This document shows, piece after piece, positions 7,314-58,539 of a stretch of DNA of 64,000 bases. Both the position numbers and the translations under genes were made by a program. This DNA is from Caminibacter mediatlanticus TB-2. GTDB taxonomy: Bacteria > Campylobacterota > Campylobacteria > Campylobacterales > Nautiliaceae. Position 1 is the stretch's first letter; each line of letters begins with the position of its first letter. The stretch is from assembly GCF_005843985.1 (NCBI RefSeq), contig NZ_CP040463.1, forward strand, positions 794,001-858,000. The letters run 5' to 3'. The notes below the pieces were generated by a model, which did not search any database, was not told the DNA's origin, and saw only the letters and a program-made list of their open reading frames with translations.

Positions 7314-8557
7314 AAGAGATATATACTTTAATTATTTTTAGTATTTTAGTGGGTTTAATTTTTATTCTTTGGATAATAGAAAAAAGAAAAAATAAAATAT
7401 TGCAAAATCAATTAAATTATCTTAAAGAAGAAAATAATTTTTTAAAAATAAATTTAGAAGATAAAAAAAATGAATTGAGTAACATCCAAAAAAGATATGA
7501 TGAATTGATGCAAGAATATATTATTTTAAATAGTGATTTTTCAGCTCTTTCTTCAAAATTTCAAGAAAAAGAGAAGTTTTATAAAGAATTAGTAGAAAAT
7601 AAAGAGAAGTTAAAAAATGAATTTGAGGTATTAGCAAATTCTATTTTTGATAAGTTTTCAATAAAAAATGAAGAAAATATTTCTAAAATTTTAGACCCAA
7701 TATCTAAACAAGTAAAAGATTTTGAAGAGAAAATTATTTATTTGAAAGAAAAAGATATTGAGCTGATGAATGAACTTAAAAATTTAAAAGAATTAAATTA
7801 TAAACTCTCAGTTGAAGCAGAGAATTTAACAAAGGCATTAAAAGGAGATAAGAAAATTCAAGGGATTTGGGGTGAGATGATACTTGAAAGAGTTCTTGAA
7901 ATGAGTGGACTTAGAAAAGATAAAGAATTTATAAAAGAGAAGAGTTTGATTTGTAATGGTGAAGTTTTCAGACCAGACGTAATAGTTAAACTTCCAAATA
8001 ATAGATACATAATTATTGATGCTAAAACTTCATTAAATGTATATAGTGAATATATTAAAACAGAAGATAAAAGTTATTTAAAAGAGCATATTAAAGCTAT
8101 AAAAAATCATATTGATAAATTAGCAAGTAAAAATTATGAAAATCTTGATGGAATTAATACACTTGATTTTATTTTTATGTTTATACCAATTGAAAATGCT
8201 TTAAAGGTGGCGTTAGAGTATGATTCAACTTTGTATGAATATGCTTTTAAAAAAAGGGTTATTTTAACTACTCCTTCAACGCTTTTAGTGTCTCTTAGAA
8301 GTATAGAGGCTATTTGGAGGTTTGAGAGACAAAATGAGAATATAAAAGAGGTTATAAAATTAGCTGATAATATCTATAATAAAATGAGACTATTTTTAGA
8401 AGATTTTGAAAAGATTGATAGGTCTATTGAATATACCAAAAAATACTATTTAAATGCGAAGAATAAACTTATAAGTGGAAGAGGCAATTTAATAGATTTA
8501 CTTGAAAATATGAAAGAAAAAGCAGGAATTAAACCAAAAAAAGAATTAAGAGAGTAA
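7310..8557 (+). CDS. rmuC: RmuC-family DNA recombination protein
   Basis: A 415-residue protein with an N-terminal membrane helix (about residues 4-24), a long coiled coil (to ~residue 175) and the RmuC nuclease-like core: KGDKKIQGIWGEMILERVLE, FRPDVIVKLPN, IIIDAKTSLNVY, FIFMFIPIENAL and TPSTLLVSLR. RmuC limits DNA inversions/rearrangements at short inverted repeats. The start is a TTG overlapping the previous stop (ttga); no ATG fits. Its 3' end overlaps the convergent permease gene by 12 nt. Confidence 0.93.
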   Translation: MKEIYTLIIFSILVGLIFILWIIEKRKNKILQNQLNYLKEENNFLKINLEDKKNELSNIQKRYDELMQEYIILNSDFSALSSKFQEKEKFYKELVENKEKLKNEFEVLANSIFDKFSIKNEENISKILDPISKQVKDFEEKIIYLKEKDIELMNELKNLKELNYKLSVEAENLTKALKGDKKIQGIWGEMILERVLEMSGLRKDKEFIKEKSLICNGEVFRPDVIVKLPNNRYIIIDAKTSLNVYSEYIKTEDKSYLKEHIKAIKNHIDKLASKNYENLDGINTLDFIFMFIPIENALKVALEYDSTLYEYAFKKRVILTTPSTLLVSLRSIEAIWRFERQNENIKEVIKLADNIYNKMRLFLEDFEKIDRSIEYTKKYYLNAKNKLISGRGNLIDLLENMKEKAGIKPKKELRE

Positions 8558-9487
8558 CTTAGCCCATTTTTGAGTTTTATTTGAATATTGAAGTGCAAGT
8601 TTTAAGCTAAGTGTTAGTGGTACTGCAAAAAAAGTTCCAACAATTCCAAAAATATATCCCCAAAAAATTAATGAAAAGAAAATAACAGCAGGTGAGAGAT
8701 TTAATCCATTTCCCATAATTTTAGGTTCTAAAATATTAGAAATTGAAATATTTATTATTACATAAAAAATAGAAACATAAATTGCACTCTCTATTCCATA
8801 GTTAATTAAAGCTAAGAAAATCCCAGGAATTGCAGCAATTATTGAACCAACTACTGGTATAAAATTTAGTATAAACGCTAAAAATCCTAAAAGAAATGCA
8901 TAATCTATTTTAAATGAATAAACCATAATTCCTACACATATTCCTGTAAGTAAGCTTGTAAAAAATTTTATTACAAAATATTTTTGGACAGATTTATAAA
9001 ATTCGATAAAAATTTTAGGATTATTAGATAATAAATTTATCTTTTGATGAAAGATATTACTCTCAAATAATAAAAAACTAACTCCAATAACTACAATTAT
9101 AAAACCACTAACTATGCTTCCAGCTTTTCCAAGAAACTTTTGAATGAAAGGAATAATATTAATATCTTGAAAATTAAAATTGATTTTTTCTAAGGAATCT
9201 TTATATTGAATTATTAAATTGTGAAGTTTGCTTTCATAGATAGGGTAGTTTTTTATAAATTCATCAAGTGAAGTTTTTATTAAAATAGAAATAATTAAAA
9301 AAATTAATAAAAAACTACTAATTGTTAAAGTATATGAAATAATAGAAGGCAAACCTTTATTTTCAAAAAACTTAAAAATAGGTATTAGCAAAAATGATAA
9401 AAAAATTGAAAGTATTAAATAAATTAAAATAGGAGATAAAAATTTAAGTCCGAAAATAATTATAAAAATTGAAGCTAAATAAAGCAT
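8546..9487 (-). CDS. AI-2E/PerM-family transporter
   Basis: A 313-residue integral membrane protein with about seven to eight hydrophobic helices and the AI-2E permease C-terminal signature (LEPKIMGNGLNLSPAVIF, then GTFFAVPLTLSLK). Family members range from autoinducer-2 exporters to Na+/H+ antiporters, so the substrate cannot be assigned. It lies 8 nt below the DUF505 stop on the same strand. Its Shine-Dalgarno (aaggg) falls inside the 3' arm of a hairpin at 9490-9512, which may limit translation. Confidence 0.88.
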   Translation of the reverse strand: MLYLASIFIIIFGLKFLSPILIYLILSIFLSFLLIPIFKFFENKGLPSIISYTLTISSFLLIFLIISILIKTSLDEFIKNYPIYESKLHNLIIQYKDSLEKINFNFQDINIIPFIQKFLGKAGSIVSGFIIVVIGVSFLLFESNIFHQKINLLSNNPKIFIEFYKSVQKYFVIKFFTSLLTGICVGIMVYSFKIDYAFLLGFLAFILNFIPVVGSIIAAIPGIFLALINYGIESAIYVSIFYVIINISISNILEPKIMGNGLNLSPAVIFFSLIFWGYIFGIVGTFFAVPLTLSLKLALQYSNKTQKWAKLLS

Positions 9488-11379: not shown

Positions 11380-11408
11380 ATTTTATCATATCATTTTTGT
11401 TTAGTCAA
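11380..11408 (-). promoter_or_regulatory. Sigma-70-type promoter of the DUF505 gene
   Basis: On the minus strand TTGACT (11408-11403), a 17-nt spacer and TAAAAT (11385-11380). The -10 box ends 27 nt before the ATG. The gene is separated from tatC by 141 nt, so an independent promoter is expected. Confidence 0.65.
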
Positions 11409-11419
11409 TTAAACTAAAC
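11399..11419. promoter_or_regulatory. Perfect 7-7-7 palindrome over the DUF505 -35 box, HAIR-like operator candidate
   Basis: GTTTAGT - 7 nt - ACTAAAC, a perfect dyad covering the -35 hexamer. The HspR operator (HAIR, CTTGAGT-N7-ACTCAAG) has the same 7-7-7 geometry and five of seven identical bases per arm. A repressor bound here would block RNA polymerase. Which protein binds is inference. Confidence 0.5.
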
Positions 11420-38224: not shown

Positions 38225-38794
38225 ATGAAAAAGTGGTTATTTTTAATTCTTGCAGGAGTATTAAGTTTTAGTGCGAGTAATGATGATATTAATAAAAAAC
38301 TTGATTTATTGCTCCAAAAAATAGACCAATTAGAAAAAAAAGTTGATGCAAAAGATAAACAAATTGAAGAATTAAAAAAAGAGCTTAAAAAAGAGCAAAT
38401 TGCTATAAAAAAACAACAAGAATATACAAAAAAAGAATTTGCAATAAAAAGTTGTAATAAAATTAAAGTTGTATCTCTTAAATATAAATACCATAATGAG
38501 ATTATTCCTTATTATGATTTAGAAATTAAGCTTAAAAATACTTATCCAGAAAATATAAAGTATATTAGAGGCTCATTATTTGCAGAAGATAGTGATAAAG
38601 TTAAAATTCTTCAAGATTATATTGATAGAGAAGTTGATTTTAAAAAAGGTGATATTATAACTATTAATAAAAAGCATACAATAAATAATGATTTAGAAAA
38701 ATATTTAAAAGATGAAAATCCAAAAAACTTATATATCTATTTTAAACCAACAATGATAGAATTTTCAAATGGATATAGATTAGAGTGTAATTAA
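38225..38794 (+). CDS. Exported coiled-coil protein, unknown function
   Basis: A 189-residue protein with a signal peptide (MKKWLFLILAGVLSFSAS), a Lys/Glu heptad coiled coil (about residues 20-72) and a C-terminal mixed domain with two cysteines (Cys ~78 and the penultimate residue) that could form a disulfide in the periplasm. I recognise no family. Its stop overlaps the convergent DUF455 gene by 4 nt; it is divergent from the rhodanese gene. Confidence 0.65.
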   Translation: MKKWLFLILAGVLSFSASNDDINKKLDLLLQKIDQLEKKVDAKDKQIEELKKELKKEQIAIKKQQEYTKKEFAIKSCNKIKVVSLKYKYHNEIIPYYDLEIKLKNTYPENIKYIRGSLFAEDSDKVKILQDYIDREVDFKKGDIITINKKHTINNDLEKYLKDENPKNLYIYFKPTMIEFSNGYRLECN

Positions 38795-39591
38795 CACTCT
38801 ATTTTTTCATTTAATATTTTTAATTCTTGACAACTAAATCCTGCTTTTAATCTTGCAGATACATTTAAATCTTTTTTCTTCCAATCTTTAAAAAAATTAT
38901 CCACAATTTCAAAGTATGTTTGAATTGGTTCTAAATTTAGTCTTTTGCATTCTCTTTTGAACCATTTATCACCTTTTTTTACATGAGGAATTTCTTCTTT
39001 TAAGATTATTTTTAAAGCTTCAATTACTTCTTTTGCAAAAGAGTCATTGTATCGGGAAAGTTTATTTATAATCTTTTCATTAGCATCAAGTCCATTTGCT
39101 TCATACCATCTTGGAATTATTGCCATTCTGCTTAATAAATCTTGTGTTTTAGTGGAGGCTTCAAATAAAGAATTATGCACAGGAAAGTCTCCATATTTAT
39201 ATCCTGTTTTTTCAAGCAAGGAATTAATTAATTTAAAATGCCTAATCTCATCATCGGCAACTTCAAGCCAATCTAAATAAAACTCTTTATCTAAATTTCT
39301 AAATCTATAACAAGCATCTAAGGCTAAATCTATTGCTGAGTATTCAATATGGACTATTGCGTGTAGTAAAATTGCTTTTTTTTCATTACTCTCAAATCCT
39401 CTTCTTCGAGGGACTTGACTTGGAGAGACTATTTTACAAAAGCTTTCATAACTTGGTTTTTTAAAAATTTTTGGTTTTTTGTTTGAATGGAAGTTAAAAT
39501 TATTGATATTTTTATATAAATCATTAAACATACTAAATTTTTGTGGTATATTATCACAAGTAATTATCTCTTCTAAGGTTTTATAAAACAT
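38791..39591 (-). CDS. DUF455 ferritin-like protein
   Basis: About 266 residues. The sequence has the DUF455 pattern: a long helix with LLHAIVHIEYSAIDLALDA, then WLEVADDEIRHFKL and a later EEIPHVKKGDKWF, giving the Glu/His ligands of a ferritin-like di-iron four-helix bundle. The reaction is not known for this family. I use the ATG at 39591 with aaaaagg in front; 11 residues upstream (39624) lack a Shine-Dalgarno. Divergent from moaA by 42 nt. Confidence 0.87.
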   Translation of the reverse strand: MFYKTLEEIITCDNIPQKFSMFNDLYKNINNFNFHSNKKPKIFKKPSYESFCKIVSPSQVPRRRGFESNEKKAILLHAIVHIEYSAIDLALDACYRFRNLDKEFYLDWLEVADDEIRHFKLINSLLEKTGYKYGDFPVHNSLFEASTKTQDLLSRMAIIPRWYEANGLDANEKIINKLSRYNDSFAKEVIEALKIILKEEIPHVKKGDKWFKRECKRLNLEPIQTYFEIVDNFFKDWKKKDLNVSARLKAGFSCQELKILNEKIEC

Positions 39592-58508: not shown

Positions 58509-58529
58509 CTTGACATAAAACGACTAAAC
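58509..58529. promoter_or_regulatory. Degenerate HAIR-like operator at the clpB promoter
   Basis: CTTGACA - 7 nt - ACTAAAC, overlapping the -35 box. It keeps the 7-7-7 spacing of HAIR; the arms are imperfect complements, and the right arm equals the right arm of the DUF505 palindrome. HspR control of clpB is known in Campylobacterota; binding here is inference. Confidence 0.4.
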
Positions 58530-58539
58530 CTGTTATAAT
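58510..58539 (+). promoter_or_regulatory. Sigma-70-type promoter of clpB
   Basis: TTGACA (58510-58515), 18 nt, TATAAT (58534-58539). Both hexamers perfect. The transcript start would be about 25 nt before the ATG. Confidence 0.75.

Follow-up and report, generated by a model that had tools for sequence, protein, structure and literature searches.

Predicted HspR operators of a relaxed HAIR type at the clpB and DUF505 promoters of a Nautiliaceae genome

In Streptomyces, the HAIR operator of HspR is CTTGAGT-N7-ACTCAAG. In Campylobacter jejuni a HAIR-like site has been proposed at each of the promoters Pcbp, Pclp, Pgro and Phrc, where HspR contacts extended regions; at gro and hrc it occupies DNA further upstream than the core promoter, and HrcA sits across the start site (PMC7464140). 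In Helicobacter pylori, when the HAIR-like arms are mutated, HspR no longer binds and Pcbp is derepressed (PMC6102357). The HrcA-CIRCE system, which in relatives controls gro and hrc-grpE-dnaK, uses a different word, given as TTAGCACTC-N9-GAGTGCTAA where PMC7464140 quotes it. For the Nautiliales, passages of a metagenomic study mention hrcA and hspR without operators (PMC10696704), and in a Nautilia strain DnaJ and GroEL are reported to change with pressure, not with heat (PMC10092268). Among the titles and abstract beginnings retrieved in our literature search, no paper proposed a Nautiliaceae HspR regulon or DUF505 as a heat-shock gene.

The genome compared here with those systems (G000), from the Nautiliaceae, heat-loving bacteria of vents, has 1,685,887 bases and contains the window, that is, the whole stretch of 64,000 nt that was analysed (G000:C1:794001-858000). 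Two sites of this window, one at the clpB promoter (CTTGACATAAAACGACTAAAC, with TAAAACG as spacer) and the other at the promoter of a DUF505 gene (GTTTAGTCAATTAAACTAAAC, with CAATTAA as spacer), had been proposed in a sequence-only reading as a shared HspR operator. Both are indeed built as that reading described, with 7-nt arms, a 7-nt gap and ACTAAAC as the end (Table 1). The arm and spacer lengths and the ACT...A...A core are also those of the Streptomyces operator, whereas by our own count only 10 of the 14 consensus positions agree at either site. The DUF505 site, 47 nt upstream of the start codon of its gene, is a perfect 7-7-7 inverted repeat, and at grpE-dnaK this genome has a perfect 21-mer of the same type. 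The proposal implied an HspR protein in the same genome and similar sites at its other chaperone promoters. An hspR gene was found at L001:1474-1845 (NF047375, 121.5 bits; cut-off 105), having a cbpA-type DnaJ gene directly upstream and encoding the sole MerR_1 match in the genome, and similar sites were located at cbpA-hspR, grpE-dnaK and, in a weaker form, groES.

By analogy, the promoter layout is the same as that of the HspR regulon of C. jejuni and H. pylori: hspR stands beside cbpA, HAIR-like sites occur at cbp, clpB (in C. jejuni), gro and hrc, and those of gro and hrc lie upstream of the core promoter (PMC7464140, PMC6102357). Unlike in those bacteria, the word is relaxed to TTKAGT-N7-ACTMAA, this genome and those closest to it no longer have hrcA, and the regulon seems to have gained DUF505, DUF1931 and an HdeD-like gene. 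We consider it likely, with a probability of roughly 0.83, that both sites are HspR operators of a relaxed Nautiliaceae HAIR type, at which HspR would repress transcription in unstressed cells and from which heat would derepress the chaperones and DUF505. We infer all three elements of this reading, namely HspR as the binding protein, repression as the sign and heat as the signal. In an unstressed cell, an HspR dimer would occupy the operator and block RNA polymerase; under heat shock HspR would release it, and the chaperones, ClpB, HspR-CbpA and DUF505 would be derepressed jointly, together with DUF1931 and the HdeD-like protein. DUF505 is thus predicted to be probably heat-induced along with the chaperone genes.

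Table 1. Features of the clpB and DUF505 loci (window coordinates) and the chaperone sites elsewhere in the genome (contig coordinates).
Feature	Position	Strand	Basis or remark
HAIR-like operator over the clpB -35 box, CTTGACA-N7-ACTAAAC	58509..58529	+	Read from sequence and orthologous promoters
clpB -35 box TTGACA, within the operator left arm	58510..58515	+	18-nt spacer to TATAAT
clpB -10 box TATAAT	58534..58539	+	Read from sequence
clpB, disaggregase of 867 aa	58571..61174	+	TIGR03346, 1208.5 bits, slightly below the cut-off of 1232.1
HAIR-like operator of DUF505, GTTTAGT-N7-ACTAAAC, perfect inverted repeat	11399..11419	.	Sequence; at least 11/12 in 16/18 family promoters
DUF505 -35 box TTGACT, within the operator	11403..11408	-	17-nt spacer
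DUF505 -10 box TAAAAT	11380..11385	-	Read from promoter sequence
DUF505 protein (PF04458), 618 aa	9496..11352	-	Full-length match, 775 bits
AI-2E family transporter, begins 8 nt past DUF505	8546..9487	-	Gene position
cbpA-hspR site	G000:C1:932678		Intergenic, 11/12 (among 100 of 103 near-HAIR sites listed)
groES site	G000:C1:424679		Weaker, 10/12
grpE-dnaK site	G000:C1:861483		12/12

The window alone lends no support to the claim, as neither type of match is enriched in this AT-rich DNA. HAIR matches at 10 or more of 14 positions numbered 13, compared with 22-30 in six simulated windows, and perfect 7-7-7 inverted repeats 18, compared with 14-35; ACTAAAC was present 10 times for 10.3 expected. 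Nor were near-HAIR matches raised genome-wide (103 vs 124 for the reversed pattern). Among 100 of these 103 sites, six scored 12/12, four of them being intergenic and preceding the DUF505, grpE-dnaK, DUF1931 and HdeD-like genes; of the other two, one was located where an ORF ends, 23 nt upstream of an AMMECR1 gene, and one inside an ORF. The intergenic 11/12 sites among the same listed matches precede cbpA-hspR, a YfdX gene and the gene of a 255-aa protein (L233), which matched no Pfam family.

Upstream regions of cbpA, groES, hrcA, grpE, clpB, DUF505, DUF1931 and the HdeD-like gene were extracted from 21 family genomes, which are related, so that the counts are not independent events. They were scored with the 12 positions of TTKAGT-N7-ACTMAA, whose K/M consensus was written after inspection of the sequences; two DUF505 loci (L067 and L070) and one grpE locus (L130) without N-terminus were dropped. 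The comparison points to a single operator word whose place in the promoter is fixed at cbpA-hspR, groES, (hrcA-)grpE-dnaK, clpB and DUF505. It scored 10-11/12 in all 18 cbpA promoters and 10-12/12 in all 13 hrcA promoters, in the latter 87-89 nt upstream of the start. At groES, 19 of 21 promoters reached at least 10/12 and the best site was 94-96 nt upstream of the start in 20 of 21; the sites of G003 and G005, with the left arm alone kept, scored 9, and that of G001 was weak. Where no hrcA precedes grpE the word was present in 5/5 genomes, the site of G002, beyond the scored span, being read by eye. The DUF505 promoters scored 12/12 in 11 and at least 11/12 in 16 of 18 genomes, the word being missing from those of G008 and G020. 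As a control, 11 of 425 other upstream regions from the same loci scored at least 11/12, and all five 12/12 cases corresponded, by eye, to target sites met from the opposite strand or from an alternative start.

At cbpA-hspR, clpB and DUF505 the -35 box is overlaid by the operator; at groES and (hrcA-)grpE-dnaK the operator is found upstream of that box. Orthologous sites exchange T/G and A/C at mirrored positions, TTTAGT with TTGAGT at hrcA and ACTAAA with ACTCAA at groES and clpB, and this alternation was seen at hrcA of G015-G018, at groES of G009-G010 and at the DUF1931 and HdeD-like genes. Because the arms alternate at orthologous positions, both forms appear equivalent, and the swaps appear to connect TTTAGT...ACTAAA with the canonical TTGAGT...ACTCAA.

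Three other explanations were weighed against HspR control of both sites. From its sequence, the clpB copy is the weakest site of the set and, beyond the -35 box, HAIR-like in the right arm only. The repeat is imperfect, its arms matching each other at just 3 of 7 positions because the -35 hexamer TTGACA takes up the left one, and the score of 10/12 corresponds, for a single promoter compared with shuffles, to p about 0.08. Such values would suit a site that is merely a strong -35 box plus spacer, similar to that of DUF505 by coincidence even if DUF505 were controlled by HspR. However, ACT[AC]AA lies exactly 7 nt 3' of TTGACA in 18/18 orthologous clpB promoters; five of these six columns never change although several spacer columns do, and the right arm takes the form ACTCAA in G015, G016 and G020. 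Moreover, of 27 promoter-like matches in sampled DNA, the only one with ACT[AC]AA at this distance was clpB itself. The DUF1931 promoters present the clpB-like TTGACA/T-N7-ACT[AC]AA over the -35 box in 8/18 genomes and a separate upstream repeat in some, and the existence of both layouts at one promoter connects the unusual clpB site with the other sites. We therefore regard coincidence as unlikely. The HAIR-type operator proposed as common to clpB and DUF505 is in this way favoured by its family-wide conservation (18/18 and 16/18, respectively), with the qualifications that the left arm of clpB is the -35 box and that the link to DUF505 appears confined to the Nautiliales.

The word could also be bound by a different repressor or activator that controls the chaperones too, HspR binding only the cbpA-hspR site, whose arms (TTGATT...ACTCAA) differ somewhat in appearance. 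Across 18 genomes the cbpA site never had the TTTAGT arm, which groES, hrcA and DUF505 mostly have, as this explanation would predict. It is nevertheless improbable in view of the intermediates TTGAGT...ACTAAA and TTTAGT...ACTCAA at orthologous hrcA, groES, DUF1931 and HdeD-like sites, of the known role of HspR at these promoters in Campylobacter (PMC7464140) and of its being the only MerR_1 protein here. As for HrcA, which in relatives regulates groES as well as the hrcA operon (PMC7464140), its binding to the word is very improbable. A search with PF01628 matched in none of the 21 family genomes, G000 included, but this did not prove the absence of hrcA because the model also misses the HrcA-like protein encoded upstream of grpE in relatives. 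This protein, taken from G001, gave 150 bits with NF003033, below the cut-off of 248, and 65.7 bits with TIGR00331; used as query, it matched in 13 of 21 genomes and in none of G000, G002-G006, G019 and G020. A CIRCE-like repeat 3' of the groES -10 box, searched for with a regular expression written after inspection of the sequences, was present in 13/13 genomes with hrcA vs 1/8 without it, the single exception being G019, which is 57% complete. The binomial figure calculated in the same analysis takes an intergenic share of 10% as an assumption. No such repeat was detected at groES of G000, where the best CIRCE score was 9/18. Genomes in which hrcA was not found keep the HAIR-like word at grpE, clpB and, apart from G020, DUF505; at groES its retention varies more. 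HrcA/CIRCE was rejected as the binder, since the CIRCE-like element tracks hrcA and the sites of G000 are kept with no hrcA found there.

The reach of the DUF505 link beyond the family was examined with 22 of 33 DUF505 loci, the remainder being ten from Nautiliaceae that had been found again and one with a cut N-terminus (L211). A perfect site was present in one further Nautiliales MAG (L188). Elsewhere in the Campylobacterota, all 19 DUF505 promoters scored were without the word, as were the two from Acidobacteria, none exceeding 9/12, and for this reason DUF505 seems to have joined the HspR regulon within the Nautiliales specifically. The adjacent AI-2E family transporter gene possibly forms one operon with DUF505, to judge from its position. 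The first structure model of the DUF505 protein was poor (pLDDT 63). A second one, built with 31 sequences (pLDDT 77.5, pTM 0.71), contained repeated helix-helix-helix-wing units, and its residues 271-441 and 460-535 aligned in VIA-align with MarR- and DtxR-type winged helices (Z about 8-10). Foldseek with either model gave nothing at E <= 0.001, and PDB sequences searched with a profile yielded only matches of E >= 0.3. The second model suggests that DUF505 is a multi-winged-helix protein. No paper naming DUF505 as a whole word was found in the literature search; papers examined among those retrieved dealt with DUF5059.

If HspR acts as predicted, DUF505, a family without known function, would for the first time be placed in a functional context, and one that is simple to test. 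The sites likewise suggest that the bacterial histone-fold protein DUF1931, whose role is unclear, may be under heat-shock control. More tentatively, and with chances somewhat below even, HspR of the Nautiliaceae might be a general stress repressor that in this lineage became the sole control of all major chaperones after the loss of HrcA; DUF505 and DUF1931, typical of thermophiles, would have been recruited to it, and heat shock would alter nucleic-acid handling as well as folding. Under the main reading, too, the group offers a clear case of a heat-shock circuit reduced from two repressors to one, with operator sites decaying in step.

Several minor observations were made at these loci. In G000 (L112), G002, G003, G005 and G006 (loci L112-L129), hrcA has disappeared from its place between an AI-2E transporter gene and grpE, and these genomes have also lost the groES CIRCE-like repeat; G001, of the same genus, retains hrcA. 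At the DUF1931 histone-fold gene (L007:1501-1519; L132-L149) the HAIR-like site changed place between genera. DUF1931 proteins are histone-fold pseudodimers and reportedly do not have the usual DNA-binding residues (PMC12701072, PMC11390915). The HdeD-like (DUF308) gene (L004:1501-1519; L150-L166) has TTTAGT/TTTAGC-N7-ACT[AC]AA just 5' of the -35 box in most family genomes, and an in-frame stop in G015 (TGA, L158) and G019 (TAA, L164), which may reflect a pseudogene or a sequencing error. The 11/12 HAIR-like site of the YfdX-family gene (L219, G000:C1:607396) is directly upstream of it. Finally, a perfect 7-7-7 inverted repeat, TAGAGTG-N7-CACTCTA, lies at positions 38781-38801 of the window where two gene ends meet, and is probably a terminator.
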